Source of the DNA: Candidatus Kapaibacterium sp.
GTDB lineage: Bacteria > Bacteroidota > Ignavibacteria > Kapaibacteriales > UBA2268
DNA length: 63,149 nt
Assembly: GCA_026390695.1 (NCBI GenBank)
Contig: JAPLFL010000039.1
Span: 1 to 63,149, forward strand
Reading direction: 5' to 3'
The position numbers were made by a program, and so were the translations under genes. The notes beneath the pieces are model-generated. The model was not told where the DNA came from. It searched no databases and saw only the letters and a program-made list of their open reading frames with translations. Position 1 is the stretch's first letter. Each line of letters starts with the position of its first letter. Below, one piece after another: positions 13,419-19,138 of this stretch.

Positions 13419-13426
13419 TAACTTTG
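13419..13426 (+). promoter_or_regulatory. Likely -7 element of the B12 operon promoter
   Basis: TAACTTTG matches the Bacteroidota -7 box TAnnTTTG and lies about 10 bases before the riboswitch begins, where transcription would be expected to start. No TTG is found at the usual distance upstream. Confidence 0.4.
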
Positions 13427-13435
13427 AATCAGTTC

Positions 13436-13600
13436 TTTGCAAGTTCCGGGAATCAGGTGCAATACCTGAGCGGTTACGCCGCTGTAACGGAGTACTCATG
13501 TTTCAAATTCATTATTAAGAATGGCCACTGTCACTATTTATGGGATGGGAAGGCGAAACACAGAGGATGATACCGAAGTCAGAAGACCGACCTGCAATGC
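13436..13600 (+). ncRNA. Cobalamin (adenosylcobalamin-type) riboswitch
   Basis: The leader RNA has the conserved pieces of a cobalamin riboswitch in order: GGGAATCAGGTG with CACCTGA-like pairing, the AACGG-type segment (GCCGCTGTAACGGAG), GCCACTG (13523-13529), GGGATGGGAAGGCG, GATGATACCGAAGTCAGAAGACC, and the B12 box (about 13573-13592) followed by CCTGC. The ligand should shut off expression of the downstream operon when B12 is plentiful. The about 180 bases between aptamer and first start codon contain a small hairpin (CATTCG, 13638-13643, with CGAATG, 13650-13655) but no T-run, so control may be translational (inference). Confidence 0.93.
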
Positions 13601-13779
13601 TCATTGGAATGTCAGATATTTAGTGTGTCTGGCTGTACATTCGCGTAAACGAATGCTTTGAGGGAAACGAAGAATCCGCAATCACTCTTTCTTTTGAATC
13701 CCTCATTTTATTTATCGTTGCGACTTTATTTGGTCTCAACTTTTTATCAAAATATTTCTATTTTTTAGAGGAGATTCTT

Positions 13780-15147
13780 ATGAAGCAGTTCCTACTGATC
13801 ATTTCACTTATTTTAATTTCAATTTCAAACTCACTTTCCGTTAATTGGCAGGATAGAAAAATGTTTAATGTTGGAAAGGAGCCGTCAGCGGTCTTTGTGG
13901 ATAATGGAGGGAAGTTTGCTAATCCTATCGTTTACATTATCTGCTCAGGTTATGATATGAATTTTAATGATACATTAGATGTAAAAGATGGCGATGAGAC
14001 GCCTTCTATCTGGGCTTTGCAGTTAAAATATCTTTCTCAATATACTGAACCAAACGTATTTAAAGTATGTGATTTGCCTTTCGGTTCAATCGGCAGGCTT
14101 GGTGGACCTATGCGAGTGGGTTATACCCCTGTTGATGCGGATAGTAGTACATTTACAAGTTACTTATATTTGCCTCAAAATGGCAAGATCAGCCGCTACA
14201 CTTTAGTTAATGGTAAAATGACATTAAAAGAAGATTTGCTAAATTTCAAAGCTGATGCGGTTTCTGTTATAAATAATAATTTATTACTGAGCGTAAATAG
14301 CCCCAGCAGCAGAATATTTATATATGATATGCTTAATAAAATATTTTTGGATTCGATTACAACACCCAAGAATGTGATGCAAACTTATTCTAATCATATT
14401 GATTATATTTTTGCGGTATGCGAGGGTAATTTCGGAAAGAATGATGGGAAGCTACTCTTCATAGATTTAAATATGAAAAAGGATACAAGTCTAAATGCAG
14501 GAGACACACCAAATTATTTAAGTACAATGCAGGAAAATGATAATGAAGCTTGCTTAATATCTAATGGTTCGCACGAAATGAGACTAATTGGTAAAAATAT
14601 TGAACTTGTTAAACTTCCGACATCAGGTTACAGCGGGCCACGCGAATGTGCTTATGATGGGCAATCATGGCTCGTTACCGCTTATGATGGCAAAGTATAT
14701 TCTTATGATACTACTGCAAAAAAATTTACTACTTTAGATTCATTAAACGAAATGCTTGAATCAATCAGAGTGTATGCACCTTTGAAGGGAAATCCTGCAA
14801 GTTGGATGTTCGTTACAGCAGCTCTCAATATGGATTATTCGCCTTCAAACCATTTGTATGTTTATGATAACGGATACCAGGCTGTGGATGAGCCTTCTGC
14901 TGATATTGGAATAAATATGTTTCCAAATCCAACGAATAATATTATCAATATTAAAATACTTGAAAGCAGCAATAGTAAAGCTTATAGTGTGGAATTGTTA
15001 TCCTATCTTGGAAATTCAATCAAAATAATGTCAAATATTTATTCATCTGAAATTTCACTGAACATTGAAGAGCTTGCCTCAGGTATATATTTTATAAAAT
15101 ATACCAGTACTAACAAGACAGTGCTATTGCCAATTGTAAAGCAGTGA
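13780..15147 (+). CDS. Secreted beta-propeller protein with T9SS sorting domain (B12 operon)
   Basis: First gene under the cobalamin riboswitch. The 455-residue protein has a signal peptide (about 1-20). A beta-rich region (about 25-370) follows, with propeller-like recurring 'YLYLPQNGKISRYTL', 'RIFIYDMLNKIFLDS', 'KLLFIDLNMKKD' and 'KVYSYDTTAKKFTTL' blades. A C-terminal T9SS type A sorting domain (about 378-455: MFPNPTNNIINIKI ... GIYFIKYTS...) ends the chain. It should be carried across the outer membrane by T9SS and fixed to, or released from, the cell surface. Because it is controlled by B12 and has a propeller like BtuG, a surface cobalamin- or corrinoid-capture role is a reasonable inference, not shown. 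An AGAGGAG ribosome site precedes the ATG. Confidence 0.78.
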   Translation: MKQFLLIISLILISISNSLSVNWQDRKMFNVGKEPSAVFVDNGGKFANPIVYIICSGYDMNFNDTLDVKDGDETPSIWALQLKYLSQYTEPNVFKVCDLPFGSIGRLGGPMRVGYTPVDADSSTFTSYLYLPQNGKISRYTLVNGKMTLKEDLLNFKADAVSVINNNLLLSVNSPSSRIFIYDMLNKIFLDSITTPKNVMQTYSNHIDYIFAVCEGNFGKNDGKLLFIDLNMKKDTSLNAGDTPNYLSTMQENDNEACLISNGSHEMRLIGKNIELVKLPTSGYSGPRECAYDGQSWLVTAYDGKVYSYDTTAKKFTTLDSLNEMLESIRVYAPLKGNPASWMFVTAALNMDYSPSNHLYVYDNGYQAVDEPSADIGINMFPNPTNNIINIKILESSNSKAYSVELLSYLGNSIKIMSNIYSSEISLNIEELASGIYFIKYTSTNKTVLLPIVKQ

Positions 15148-15247
15148 TGTTTCAGTATGTAGATATTTTTATCAAAAATAAAAACGGTACATAACTGATG
15201 GAAAGCGCTCCAGTCATGGTTGTACTAAAATATTAGATAAGTCCAAA

Positions 15248-17155
15248 ATGAACATTATAATAATTAATTTATTTCTTATCAGTTTCTTTCTGTCATCAGC
15301 CGTAATTCGGGCAGAAGATACTCTTGTAACCCGCGGACAGGAGCTGATTATCAATTCTAATAGACTTGATCTTTTAAATAAAGCACAACTTGTTCCAAAA
15401 ACAATTATTCGAATCAAAGAAGAAAAAATTAATTTAATTTCGTTCGATGAGATTCTGAGCGGTATTTCAGGACTTACAGTAAAAAATTATGGTGGAGCCG
15501 GAGGATTGAAAACAATTTCTATTCGTGGGACTAATTCACAACAGACAGCAATTTCCATTGAAGGTTTTCAGTTGAATGCAGCTCACAGTGGGTCATTTGA
15601 TCTTACTAATATACCTTTGAATTTTCTTAGTGAGGCAGTTATTATTCATGGTGGTATTTCTGCGTTATATGGCGGTGGATCTATAGGTGGAGCTATAAAT
15701 TTGAAATTGATAGAAAAACAAGATTCTGTAAATTTCCATTCTCAGATTTTAATAGGATCATTTGGAGAGTTTAAGTTGGCTGCCATAGCGAATTGTAATA
15801 TTAATAAAACCAATTATGGAATCATTTCTGCATCAGTTTATCGATCTAAAGGTAATTATCCTGTTGAATACAATAATTACTCGATTAATAGTCAGATACG
15901 CCGCACTAATTGCGATATAACAGATATTAACCTCTTAACAAAATGGATTTTTATCGGTGATAGATATAAATTGAGTCCGTTTGTGATTTTACAGGGATCG
16001 GAGCGAGGTTGCCCTGGGCCTGTTATTCAAAATAATCCCTTAGACTCAACATCTCGATTATTTGGGAGAGAGATGATTTCAGGCATAAAATATGAAAAAA
16101 TAGTATCTGAACCTTCTTATTATACAATCTCTGGAATGTGGCACTCATCCTACTTAAAATATGAAAGTAAATTTGTAGATTCAATATCCGAATATAATAC
16201 AAATGATTTTCAAGTTAATACAAATTATTTCTATAACTCAGAAAGAATATTTTTAAACTTATGTGCAGATGCACGTTTAACGGCTATGAATTCAAATAAA
16301 ATAATTTTATATAATAGTTACGTTATAAGAAAATCTGCTGCTGTTCTTGGATTTATTCGATATTCGGAAAATAATAATTCGGAATCAATGAACTGGAGTA
16401 CAGAGGCAGCCATCAGGCAAGAATATATTCCTGATTATGGATATTCAATATCCCCTTTTATAGGCATTGGTACTAATTATAGTAAAATATTAAATATATT
16501 TTTGTCATGGTCATATAATTTTCGACCACCAAGTTTTAATGAGTTGTATTATTTGAATTTTGGTACAAAAAACCTTCAACCTGAGCGCTCCAACTCATTT
16601 AATCTAACATTTAAAATAAATAACAGATATGCTGATGTATCTTTATCACCTTTTTTAATTCTAACAAAAAATCAAATTATATCTGTTCCGAAAAGTCCTG
16701 TCGCTTGGAGTGCTCAAAATATAGGTCAGGTGCTGACACGTGGCTTTGAGTATGATATGAAACTGAAATTACCACCTTATTTTGTTTTGATTTTTAATTA
16801 TACATATCAAATTGCGAGTGACCAAAGTCCTGAATCAGCCTATAAAGGCAAAGATATAGTATATATTCCACGTGAATCTGCGGGGTTTGAACTTAAAATA
16901 GGCTATTTAAGTTTAACTGCTGATTTGAACATCCAAAGATTAAGCTATAGGTATAGCTACCCTGATAATGACTATTCATCCATGCTCCCTGCATATTTTC
17001 AGACTAATTTAAGTTTAAAAAAGAATTTTAATTTTTACTATCAGAACATCGGAATAGTGCTGCAATGCAATAATTTATCGAATGAAAATTATGACATTGT
17101 CAGAAATTATCCTATGCCAGGTCGGAGCTTCAGATTTATTATTAACTATAATTAA
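15248..17155 (+). CDS. btuB: TonB-dependent outer-membrane cobalamin receptor (BtuB-like)
   Basis: A 635-residue TonB-dependent receptor. A signal peptide (about 1-22) is followed directly by EDTLVTRGQE, which resembles the BtuB TonB box (DTLVVTA). The plug domain (about 45-155) includes ILSGISGLTVKNYGGAGGLKTISIRG and ISALYGGGSIGGAINL. The 22-strand barrel carries typical late motifs (FRPPSFNELYYLNFGTKNLQPERSNSFNL, near residues 425-455) and ends with an aromatic-rich last strand (FRFIINYN). Position behind a cobalamin riboswitch, and next to BtuG-like genes, points to corrinoids as substrate. The downstream gene begins 2 bases after its stop. Confidence 0.9.
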   Translation: MNIIIINLFLISFFLSSAVIRAEDTLVTRGQELIINSNRLDLLNKAQLVPKTIIRIKEEKINLISFDEILSGISGLTVKNYGGAGGLKTISIRGTNSQQTAISIEGFQLNAAHSGSFDLTNIPLNFLSEAVIIHGGISALYGGGSIGGAINLKLIEKQDSVNFHSQILIGSFGEFKLAAIANCNINKTNYGIISASVYRSKGNYPVEYNNYSINSQIRRTNCDITDINLLTKWIFIGDRYKLSPFVILQGSERGCPGPVIQNNPLDSTSRLFGREMISGIKYEKIVSEPSYYTISGMWHSSYLKYESKFVDSISEYNTNDFQVNTNYFYNSERIFLNLCADARLTAMNSNKIILYNSYVIRKSAAVLGFIRYSENNNSESMNWSTEAAIRQEYIPDYGYSISPFIGIGTNYSKILNIFLSWSYNFRPPSFNELYYLNFGTKNLQPERSNSFNLTFKINNRYADVSLSPFLILTKNQIISVPKSPVAWSAQNIGQVLTRGFEYDMKLKLPPYFVLIFNYTYQIASDQSPESAYKGKDIVYIPRESAGFELKIGYLSLTADLNIQRLSYRYSYPDNDYSSMLPAYFQTNLSLKKNFNFYYQNIGIVLQCNNLSNENYDIVRNYPMPGRSFRFIINYN

Positions 17156-17157
17156 AA

Positions 17158-18054
17158 ATGAAATTAATTTACATATATATATTCTATCTAATAGCTGTAG
17201 CTCCCAATAATCACATATACGCACAAACAGGGACAATAGATACAGTATTTAGCTTTGTTCCTGGGAAAGGGCAAAATGCAGGACAGGACTCAGCTCATTA
17301 TCCAATGAATATATTTGGGCCACCAGATACATTAGCAGGATATTTAGTTCAATCATCCTCTCCTGATCAAGTTTTAAGCATTGGATTAGGAGGAGAAATT
17401 ATCGTTGGTTTCAAAGGTTTCTTTGTTGAAGATAAACCTGGAGATGATTTTACAATATTTGAAAATGCTTTTTTTAATCCGGTAACCAAAAAAATCTTTG
17501 CCGAGCCAGCAAAAGTAGCCGTCAGTCAGGATGGCATAAAATATTATGAATTTCCTTTCGATAGTTTAACATTAGTAGGGTGTGCTGGATTAACTCCTAC
17601 GATAGGTAATAAGAATCCTTTTGATCCGAATGAGAGCGGAGGAGATAAATTTGATTTAGCCAACTTAGGATTAAAGTACATTAAATTTATTAAAATTACT
17701 GATATATGTCAGATGGTGCTTAAGAATAAGAATCATCCTTACTATGACCCAATTATTAGTGGCTTTGATCTTGATGCAGTTGTTGGCTTACATTTAATTT
17801 CAAAAATCCCATTAGATGTAAACGATGGAATAGGTATAGATCTGGTCGATTTTTTAAGAGATGGTGATTGTATATCAATTTTTTCTCAGCACGATAATTT
17901 TAAAATATATTTATATAATTACATAGGCGAGTGCTTGTTAAGGCGCTCAGAATGCACTTATGAGAAAATATATCTTAATAATTATAATTACAATATATTT
18001 TTTATAAGAATAGAAACAGAAAATAATAATGAATTTATCAAAATATATAAATAA
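17158..18054 (+). CDS. Secreted beta-sandwich protein of the B12-uptake operon
   Basis: A 298-residue exported protein (signal peptide about 1-22, cut near IYAQ). The core (about 25-220) has LSIGLGGEIIVGFKG, PGDDFTIFENAF and AEPAKVAVSQDGIKYYEF. This is the pattern of a beta-sandwich family of 'cell surface' proteins often found beside BtuB/BtuG in Bacteroidota; some surface B12-binding proteins there (BtuH) belong to related loci. The C-terminal 70 residues (about 225-298: IDLVDFLRDGDCISIFSQ... FIRIETENNNEFIKIYK) look like a shortened T9SS-type sorting domain. The start lies 2 bases after btuB and its end overlaps the next gene by 26 bases, so it is an operon member. The binding role is inferred. 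Confidence 0.68.
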   Translation: MKLIYIYIFYLIAVAPNNHIYAQTGTIDTVFSFVPGKGQNAGQDSAHYPMNIFGPPDTLAGYLVQSSSPDQVLSIGLGGEIIVGFKGFFVEDKPGDDFTIFENAFFNPVTKKIFAEPAKVAVSQDGIKYYEFPFDSLTLVGCAGLTPTIGNKNPFDPNESGGDKFDLANLGLKYIKFIKITDICQMVLKNKNHPYYDPIISGFDLDAVVGLHLISKIPLDVNDGIGIDLVDFLRDGDCISIFSQHDNFKIYLYNYIGECLLRRSECTYEKIYLNNYNYNIFFIRIETENNNEFIKIYK

Positions 18055-19138
18055 CCTTCTGCTGTGGCTAATTATCAGCATCTGTTTCTGCTTTTTTTAT
18101 GGATGCGTAAAGGATCCATCACAATCAATAATTCCTAACAATATCTCTGAAAAGGTGCATGGTATCTATGTTTTGTGCGAAGGAACCATGGGGTATAATA
18201 ATTCGACTTTATCCAAATTAGATTTAGACACATTGCTTATTTATAATGATTATTTCTTCTTGCAGAATAGGGGAATAAAATTGGGTGATATCGCAAATGA
18301 TATAGAAATTATCGGTGATACGGCAATAGTAGCTGTTTCAGGGTCCAAAACTATTCTATCTTTTAATGTTAAAACCGGAAAAATAATCAAATATTTGAAT
18401 TTAACGGGGAACCGCTATCCCCGAAAAATATGCATCACAAGCGATTCTACGGCATATTTTACAGATTTGTATGCTAATTGCATTTGTAAAATTAACATTA
18501 AGGATTTAACGATAATACACGATAATATAACTGTAGGACCTGCTCCAGAAGGCATAACATTTTGTAATGGGTTTTTGTTTGTAGCAAATTCAGGCTATGG
18601 TGACTATTTTGCTAATAAACCGAAAGCTGGCACTATCAGCGTAATTGATGAAAAAATGAATATGGAAATTGCGAATTTACCCTGTGGGCCAGATGTTATC
18701 CAAGTGATTTCAGATAAAAAAAAGAATCTCATTTATGCCGCTTATTCGAACCTGCCATCAAAGCCTGACTCATTGGGAGGTTTAGTCATTTATGATGCTG
18801 TTTCATTTAAAGAAATTAAAAGATGGAGATGTAAAATATGGCAACTTACAGAAATTGCAAAACTTGGAGATTCCATTTTGTTCTTGAATGAAGAAGGATT
18901 GGGAGCCATTGATACAAAAAATAATTCTTCAACTCCTCAAATAATAATTAAAAATAATAAACCAAAAGAGCTGTGGTACACTGTTTCGGTAAATCCTAAT
19001 AATAATGATGTATGGATAGGGAACGCAAAAGATTTTCAGTCAAATGGGGAATTAATACAATTCAAATATGGCTTGTATTCATCAGCAACAGCTAATTACA
19101 AAGTTGGAGTAAATCCAGGTGCTATTATTTTTTATTGA
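18029..19138 (+). CDS. BtuG-like beta-propeller surface lipoprotein
   Basis: A 369-residue lipoprotein (lipobox FFYGC, Cys26). The mature part starts GIYVLCEGTMGYNNSTLSKLD and continues LGDIANDIEIIGDTAIVAVSGSKTILSFN, the opening blades of the DUF5074/YncE-like seven-bladed propeller to which Bacteroides BtuG belongs. FVANSGYGDYF followed by GTISVID (about 190-210) are further family marks. BtuG sits on the cell surface, binds cobalamin very tightly and passes it to BtuB. The gene ends the riboswitch-controlled operon and overlaps its predecessor by 26 bases. Function is well supported by family and context together. Confidence 0.82.
   Translation: MNLSKYINNLLLWLIISICFCFFYGCVKDPSQSIIPNNISEKVHGIYVLCEGTMGYNNSTLSKLDLDTLLIYNDYFFLQNRGIKLGDIANDIEIIGDTAIVAVSGSKTILSFNVKTGKIIKYLNLTGNRYPRKICITSDSTAYFTDLYANCICKINIKDLTIIHDNITVGPAPEGITFCNGFLFVANSGYGDYFANKPKAGTISVIDEKMNMEIANLPCGPDVIQVISDKKKNLIYAAYSNLPSKPDSLGGLVIYDAVSFKEIKRWRCKIWQLTEIAKLGDSILFLNEEGLGAIDTKNNSSTPQIIIKNNKPKELWYTVSVNPNNNDVWIGNAKDFQSNGELIQFKYGLYSSATANYKVGVNPGAIIFY

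Follow-up and report, generated by a model that had tools for sequence, protein, structure and literature searches.

The window (the whole 63,149-nucleotide stretch that was analysed, contig JAPLFL010000039.1 of Candidatus Kapaibacterium sp., assembly GCA_026390695.1) contains a cobalamin riboswitch followed by four genes, g1 to g4, that most likely constitute a corrinoid-uptake operon. The products of g1 and g3 are relatives of the Bacteroides vitamin B12 binders BtuG and BtuH and end in sorting domains of the type IX secretion system (T9SS); g2 encodes a BtuB-like receptor and g4 a BtuG-type lipoprotein. The best explanation of this arrangement is probably riboswitch-controlled corrinoid scavenging in which the T9SS and lipidation between them place BtuG- and BtuH-type binders outside the cell. 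The g1 propeller, as judged by profile comparison, is a circular permutant in which the blade order of BtuG is not kept, and it recurs directly behind cobalamin riboswitches across the order to which the host belongs.

g1: a rotated BtuG-type propeller with a T9SS tail

13780-15147, + strand: g1, probably exported, T9SS-tailed propeller of BtuG type in circularly permuted order, 455 residues (AlphaFold2 (AF2) model, profile against PDB, permutation tests)
14401-14871, + strand: g1 residues 208-364, resembling the first 164 columns of the BtuG propeller, its N-terminal half (hhalign 97-103 over 142 columns)
14917-15123, + strand: T9SS type A sorting domain of g1, residues 380-448 (PF18962, TIGR04183)

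The AF2 model of g1 (mean predicted local distance difference test score, pLDDT, 86.1) has 28 strands in residues 25-363, read as seven blades of four, and then the tail. The tail exceeds both curated cut-offs (Por_Secre_tail, Pfam PF18962, 46.5 against 27; TIGR04183, 33.9 against 23). No lipobox was found in g1; the T9SS tail is present instead.

Searched as a single sequence, g1 gives three PDB matches at E<=1, each of them within the tail region. The best eleven matches of a 30-row g1 profile to all PDB sequences are BtuG-type chains, from 8ptd (4.3e-24) through 8blw (1.9e-23), 8bmy (3.2e-16) and 3dsm (8.2e-16) down to 8p97 (1.8e-13). The matches that follow are an archaeal surface-layer propeller (1l0q, 2e-13), a chain under the name YncE family (8puj, 2.5e-13) and hydrazine synthase (6.3e-7). 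(In the PDB table the BtuG-type chains go under 'uncharacterized', 'YncE family' or 'surface layer protein'; the title of 8blw identifies it as BtuG1, and the remaining chains of the eleven, 3dsm apart, we take to be of BtuG type.) The chain 3dsm is apo-BtuG2 (PMC10404256). By profile, BtuG is the closest relative of g1 among solved proteins. The first-pass annotation had proposed a comparison of predicted structure with BtuG; the kinship is borne out by profile, and the fold searches, whose 50 listed matches (Z 27-29.5) are propellers of many kinds with BtuG not among them, are evidence neither way. Pfam propeller models gave scattered weak matches on g1 homologs and were not used.

Aligned with BtuG1, the halves of g1 cross: residues 196-354 match BtuG1 10-175 (76.5 bits) and residues 27-196 match BtuG1 180-340 (weakly, 12.9 bits). 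Left linear, g1 scores 103 over 142 columns in profile-profile comparison (hhalign) with the lineage's own BtuG; a cut at residue 204, with the old ends joined, raises this to 142.7 over 282 columns. The latter is the maximum of the rotation scan; other cuts score 73-134. When the columns of the N-terminal half of g1 are shuffled the score is at most 108.0, and none of 60 shuffles reaches the rotated value. Taken half against half, the C-terminal half of g1 matches the N-terminal half of BtuG at 97.1 and the N-terminal half of g1 the C-terminal half of BtuG at 43.2; the unpermuted pairings score 35.0 (N with N) and 21.6 (C with C). The clearest outside witness of the permutation is the 795-residue protein of region L144, which in BtuG terms consists of a C-terminal half (204-315, weak), a whole BtuG (2-322, 139 bits) and an N-terminal half (3-153), and so reads as two propellers in permuted phase.

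Conserved in the 208-364 half of g1 are E215-G216, G241, N245, P287-R288 and E327. In BtuG2, as described in PMC10404256, blades 1-4 take part in the 13 hydrogen bonds to cyanocobalamin; that the half of g1 best matching BtuG corresponds to this B12-bonding end of the ring is suggestive only.

The permuted-propeller family also has a loop of its own, D59-x-N61-F62-x-G, in which the window copy has Asp at the last place. It is part of a longer pattern, D-x-N-F-x-G...D...S, at g1 residues 59-76 (window positions 13954-14007), with D59 present in 39/39 rows, and looks like a calcium loop.

g3: a BtuH-type domain with a T9SS domain

17158-18054, + strand: g3, BtuH-domain protein with a T9SS domain, 298 residues, with a signal of the signal peptidase I type by reading (AF2, fold search, profile)
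17464-17466, + strand: Asn103 of g3, aligned with BtuH2 Asn399 (profile alignment)
17839-18051, + strand: T9SS C-terminal domain of g3, residues 228-298 (fold match)

In its AF2 model (pLDDT 91.7), residues 22-212 of g3 are a BtuH-type domain. They superpose on BtuH2 (7biz; Z 13.5, root-mean-square deviation (rmsd) 3.0, 25% identity over 152 residues) and on the BtuH part of BtuG1 (8blw_B; Z 13.5, rmsd 3.0, 27% over 157 residues), ahead of PAPP-A (Z 10.7) and then a carbohydrate-binding module (8.9). The g3 sequence profile matches 8blw at 1.7e-5 and 7biz weakly, at 0.18. Asn399 of BtuH2 is described as contacting the phosphate of B12 (PMC8941943); through the profile alignment, in which the 7biz match is weak, and with a numbering offset of 100 deduced from the construct 103-593, it corresponds to Asn103 of g3. 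This position is Asn in 39/39 rows of one family alignment (A4) and in 30/30 of another (A8). A reading of g3 as a DUF4465/BtuJ protein was dropped: no Pfam family matches at E<=1, and BtuH leads by fold.

The first-pass annotation had taken the sorting domain of g3 to be shortened. This is not what the model indicates: seven strands at residues 230-297 superpose on full T9SS domains (C-terminal domain (CTD) of RemA, 8gl6, Z 10.6, rmsd 2.1 over 71 residues; CTD of RgpB, 7pq4, Z 9.6), and residues 228-298 are, in the model, a complete T9SS-type domain. The T9SS tail models of Pfam and NCBIfam have no match on the window g3 at E<=1, and among members of the g3 family TIGR04183 matches 11/15 at E<=0.1. 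No lipobox was seen in g3 by reading.

All 30 BtuH-domain proteins of alignment A8 match the NCBIfam model 'LIC_13355 family lipoprotein' at E<=0.01, with the window g3 below the cut-off of that model. The LIC_13355 family, named after a Leptospira gene, may be related to BtuH. Close g3 homologs (46-50% identity) also stand two genes before a different TonB-dependent receptor in three regions (L111, L113 and L114) in which neither g1 nor BtuG was recognised; these homologs perhaps have a different ligand.

Riboswitch, receptor and BtuG lipoprotein

13424-13609, + strand: cobalamin riboswitch aptamer (RF00174, 77 bits, E 3e-17, full model 1-189)
13659-13705, + strand: possible expression platform, a hairpin TGAGGGA...TCCCTCA and then a T-rich run (fold and shuffles)
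15248-17155, + strand: g2, BtuB-like TonB-dependent receptor, 635 residues (PF07715, PF00593, TIGR01779)
15317-15331, + strand: TonB box DTLVT, g2 residues 24-28 (read in the translation)
18029-19138, + strand: g4, BtuG-type surface lipoprotein collinear with BtuG, 369 residues (PDB matches, lipobox read)

The riboswitch matches its model over the full length, well above the gathering score of 31.5, and is the sole RF00174 match found in the 4.63-Mb assembly. The four open reading frames 3' of it lie on the same strand (+), the first ATG being 170 nucleotides from the riboswitch; g1 and g2 are separated by 100 nucleotides and g2 and g3 by 2, and g3 and g4 overlap by 26. The operon is taken to consist of g1 to g4 because the flanking genes, named by reading, are an aconitase-like gene upstream on the opposite strand and a RecQ-like gene downstream. 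The segment 13605-13715 folds with -30.2 kcal/mol (z -3.0 against shuffles), and the hairpin and T-rich run within it may conceivably be a riboswitch terminator. (A simple terminator scan gave no match; its loop limit is 8 nucleotides and the loop of this hairpin is longer.)

Plug (PF07715) and barrel (PF00593) domains are present in g2. Of the B12 models TIGR01779 matches it best (E 6.6e-35; 120.7 bits), and g2 is called BtuB-like because this score is far below the equivalog cut-off of 599.7. The g4 protein is, on its alignments, homologous to BtuG and has the same blade order: it matches the BtuG structures 8blw (E 6.2e-19) and 3dsm (E 3.6e-16, over residues 44-366), and with 8p97 gives one end-to-end collinear alignment over residues 10-366 (2.4e-19). 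A predicted lipobox, read in the sequence, places Cys26 after F-Y-G. The first-pass annotation had named a clear cobalamin riboswitch before four tightly packed genes, a propeller with a T9SS sorting domain (g1), a BtuB with a DTLVT TonB box (g2) and a BtuG-like propeller lipoprotein (g4), and each of these assignments holds, with the stated reserve on the name of g2.

Distribution among relatives

In a survey of 60 genomes (the window's own included) cobalamin riboswitches were found in 50, with 51 matches in all, and regions were taken around the 50 matches other than that of the window; several regions end at contig edges. (Open reading frames in the relatives are simple longest-frame calls, some of which start too early; short frames before the propeller, of 100 residues in L058 and 134 in L067, were passed over as spurious.) The first gene after these 50 riboswitches is a permuted propeller in 38, an ordinary BtuG in 5, btuB in 5 and another gene in 2. 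The window order of propeller, btuB, g3 and BtuG is found in 12/38; in two of these BtuG is cut by the contig end, and one of the two has an extra short frame. T9SS tails are found at E<=0.01 on 25/39 first-gene propellers (38 and that of the window) with TIGR04183 and on 22/39 with PF18962. Among the 39 (alignment A7) are a propeller truncated where its contig stops (L079) and two lipoproteins that have no tail. When the tail model is derived from g1 itself it marks 28/38, a circular count that was not used; a model built from g3 is partly circular and was replaced by the TIGR04183 counts. The two lipoproteins (L068:2377-3450 and L098:2403-3506; 357 and 367 residues) are permuted propellers with a lipobox and no tail that lie directly before btuB, so that T9SS tail and lipid look like alternatives on the same propeller domain.

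In a wider survey of the phylum (395 genomes), near-whole matches to the g1 propeller profile occur, among the matches listed, in 8/8 genomes of the same family (own included), in 19/25 of the same order and in one of the same class (G180). In the next 25 matches listed (E 3e-18 to 7e-12), which come from other genomes, the alignment begins without exception at profile positions 144-183; their reading frames are 325-463 residues long (one has 678), and the start positions fit ordinary BtuG. Weaker matches to the profile are scattered and perhaps belong to other propellers.

Of the 38 first genes, eight encode proteins of 747-804 residues, and in seven of these two near-full-length or mostly full propeller matches precede a single tail (in the long first gene of L088 the first propeller match is partial). 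Duplication followed by loss of the end blades is thus one way in which a permutant could have arisen. One region (L169:457-7641) has three permuted-propeller genes in a row before btuB, of 781-798 residues, each with a partial first propeller match. The double permuted propellers of L144, L148 and L156, which adjoin an ordinary BtuG and btuB, are matched slightly better by the BtuG profile than by that of g1; they are possible intermediates of the permutation. Since the records of L148 and L156 are labelled candidate division KSB1 (that of L144 is labelled 'bacterium'), the form appears to extend beyond the window's order. Two genomes (G008 and G028) contain a permuted propeller and a BtuH-domain protein and no riboswitch that was found in the search, which for riboswitches used stricter filters.

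BtuH-domain matches were found in 53/395 genomes. A btuB or BtuG-type propeller lies in the same region in 26/30 BtuH-domain loci (own included), and 15/30 BtuH-domain proteins have TIGR04183 at E<=0.01. Plain T9SS tails are also found on BtuH-domain proteins of families f23 and f41 (L222-L225); T9SS-tailed BtuH therefore appears to be more widely distributed than the window's lineage.

Genes 3' of BtuG in the relatives were considered as inner-membrane B12 importers and set aside: by eye, one of 218 residues reads as cyclic-nucleotide-binding-like and one of 243 as SIMPL-like, and those of 934-958 residues in three relatives are UvrA-like.

These surveys bear on what the first-pass annotation had made of the operon as a whole. 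It had looked to gene neighbourhoods in other genomes for the g1 type with B12 riboswitches, and there the type is the first gene in the 38 of 50 regions already described; by the same count, and by its presence in most genomes of the order among the matches listed, the layout is widespread and is not peculiar to one lineage, as had been supposed. The suggestion of a second export route is upheld for relatives of B12 binders (g1 is kin to BtuG, T9SS-tailed and linked to riboswitches), with the correction that g1 is a permutant and not a plain BtuG. Of a single T9SS-targeted binder it can be said that g1 is one and that g3, with its BtuH domain and full T9SS domain, is another, so that two of the three binder relatives are tailed.

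T9SS and the need for corrinoids in the host

The T9SS translocon protein SprA, the sole component searched, is encoded in the host genome (TIGR04189 over its cut-off). T9SS tails number at least 150 in this genome, and because of this a tail is by itself weak evidence; the case that the tails of g1 and g3 exceed chance rests on their conserved linkage in relatives.

Four matches to the B12-binding domain and no CbiC (the marker synthesis gene) were found in the host genome, which for that reason probably needs corrinoids from outside; the host is probably unable to make B12 and takes up corrinoids. Neither a BtuF-type Peripla_BP_2 protein nor a FecCD/BtuC protein over the cut-off was found in the genome, the latter model giving one weak match. 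Elsewhere in the 60-genome survey, BtuC-type FecCD with E below 1e-70 is found in 5/60 genomes only (G040, G042, G044, G050 and G057) and in 0/36 of the window's family, in which five members pass the cut-off weakly, with best E values from 1e-14 to 7e-8.

A proposed route for corrinoids and its alternatives

Directly supported are the riboswitch, the gene order, the homologies, the permutation, the T9SS domains, the T9SS translocon gene and the conservation in relatives. The ligand, export, anchoring and hand-over to BtuB we infer, and the route would be as follows. At low B12 the riboswitch would allow expression. The BtuB-like g2 would be the gate in the outer membrane. By homology with Bacteroides, g4 would serve it as lid and as partner in hand-over. 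The g1 and g3 proteins would cross the inner membrane by Sec and the outer membrane by the T9SS instead of being lipidated, would capture corrinoids outside the cell, whether held at the surface or released, and would pass them to g4 and g2. A more specific proposal is put forward tentatively: that a rotated BtuG propeller, common in this order and present in a few lineages besides, acquired a T9SS tail and turned into a corrinoid capturer, sometimes in tandem, anchored or shed in the manner of a hemophore, which feeds BtuB and which together with the tailed BtuH forms a B12-capture layer, delivered by the T9SS, parallel to the one that lipoproteins provide in gut Bacteroides.

Several observations weigh against this scheme. 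The identity of g1 and BtuG is about 13%; the match of the N-terminal half of g1 to BtuG is modest when taken alone, and the D-x-N-F-x-G loop of the g1 family falls where the BtuG alignment has a gap. One of six BtuH contacts could be mapped on g3, the 7biz alignment covering chain positions 259-315 and Gln333, His476, Tyr510, Trp511 and Trp577 falling outside the comparison. T9SS tails are common in the host genome, and 10/38 propeller-first genes have no tail by any profile used (two are the lipoproteins, one is cut by the contig end and seven have a C-terminal extension that is tail-like by eye only). A btuB is close behind in 24/38 propeller-first regions and not in 14, some of these on account of contig ends. 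In several genomes of the order the BtuH-domain gene is far from the riboswitch, yet beside btuB and BtuG (for example genomes G036 and G045 and regions L221 and L216). With no BtuC or BtuF found in the genome, the route past the periplasm is missing, and the absence of B12 synthesis is read from a single marker.

The alternative that survives best, although unlikely, is that g1 is not a capture protein and is instead a second, T9SS-delivered lid that pairs with g2 in place of the lipoprotein BtuG. Ten relatives have a permuted propeller and btuB with no lipoprotein BtuG in the region (L058, L061, L063, L067, L069, L072, L075, L083, L084 and L087), and there the permuted propeller may therefore replace BtuG (a BtuG elsewhere in the genome is excluded for some of the ten, not all); moreover, the propeller of L068 and L098 is itself a tail-less lipoprotein directly before btuB. 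However, the window and 12 relatives (L054, L055, L062, L065, L070, L077, L081, L085, L088, L093, L094 and L096) have both propellers with one btuB. The termini of g1 are at another position on the ring, so that the lipid-hinge geometry of BtuG cannot be transferred to it.

It is more doubtful still that g1 binds some other ligand of use in B12 shortage (for example a metal, a precursor or a protein that bears a corrinoid) and has merely kept the BtuG scaffold. Propellers are a common scaffold, the identity with BtuG is low, and the family-specific D59-x-N61-F62 loop lies in the gap of the BtuG alignment, and so the ligand of g1 may differ. Set against this are the linkage to riboswitches (38/50) and the position of the part of g1 that matches BtuG best, which lies at the end of the ring where, in BtuG2, blades 1-4 hydrogen-bond B12 (PMC10404256).

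That the permutation is an artefact of blade repeats, a slippage by whole blades that any propeller would give, is very improbable. Blades are internal repeats, the N-terminal half of g1 scores only a little better in the permuted pairing (43.2) than in the unpermuted (35.0), cuts at 54-134 form a shoulder near 112 in the rotation scan, and rotation of BtuG against itself is a weak control (the larger native block always wins). Nevertheless, the top score is at the 204 cut and shuffling of the N-terminal half abolishes the gain in 60/60 trials; among the matches listed, 25/25 outside the window's family and order start where ordinary BtuG should, and L144 shows C-terminal half, whole propeller and N-terminal half in turn. 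Least probable of all is that the tails are coincidental in a lineage whose T9SS cargo is so frequent (at least 150 tails) that a tail says little about B12 uptake, considering that they recur on the first gene in 25/39 and on BtuH-domain proteins beside btuB and BtuG (15/30, and the plain tails of L222-L225).

In the window, relatives of two Bacteroides binder families have T9SS tails, and the riboswitch operon that encodes them is found repeatedly across an order. The shift of the g1 ends on the ring makes testable how a BtuG-type protein works without a lipid hinge and, with it, whether a cell can capture B12 independently of its membrane. Finally, the BtuH domain suggests a function for proteins whose sole other match is the 'LIC_13355 family' model.

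Comparison with known systems

The binders BtuG, BtuH, BtuJ and BtuK of Bacteroides are described as lipoproteins, some of them enriched in vesicles. The term 'T9SS' is absent from the main text of PMC13398666, PMC12751083, PMC8941943 and PMC10404256, in which lipoproteins and vesicles are described, and no publication joining BtuG or BtuH with the T9SS was found in the literature searched (subscription papers and preprints lay outside it). The parts of the operon are thus related by sequence to known families, and the export route and the rotated propeller appear to be undescribed in that literature. The nearest published idea is vesicle-borne capture of B12 at a distance (PMC12751083, PMC13398666).

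The BtuB-BtuG system of Bacteroides thetaiotaomicron, as described in PMC10404256, likewise has a riboswitch, a BtuB-type receptor and a BtuG-type lipoprotein with collinear blades (the counterparts of g2 and g4). The window operon differs in adding T9SS-tailed proteins and in that no BtuC/BtuF homologue was found in its genome. In the BtuG1/BtuGH fusion (8blw; PMC10404256, PMC12751083) BtuG and BtuH domains are likewise brought together in one B12 locus, and it is to this protein that the tailed genes are nearest: 8ptd, which covers the same stretch as 8blw, is the closest PDB sequence to g1 by profile, and 8blw and BtuH2 are the closest folds to g3. In the window, however, the genes are separate, the blades of g1 are rotated, and T9SS tails take the place of the lipid anchor.

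With BtuH2 (BT_1956, 7biz; PMC8941943) the 22-212 segment of g3 shares the BtuH fold and the phosphate-contacting Asn. In contrast to BtuH2, g3 has no room for PKD/Ig-like domains and no lipobox, and its C-terminal domain is that of a T9SS substrate. BtuJ and the DUF4465 proteins are, in the accounts of PMC12751083 and PMC13398666, exported jelly-roll binders encoded in B12 loci, as here; g3 differs from them in having no Pfam match. With type A cargo of the T9SS (RgpB, RemA), g3 has the CTD fold in common and g1 the sequence model. What sets the cargo of the window apart from RgpB and RemA is its relation to B12 binders and its probable control by a cobalamin riboswitch.

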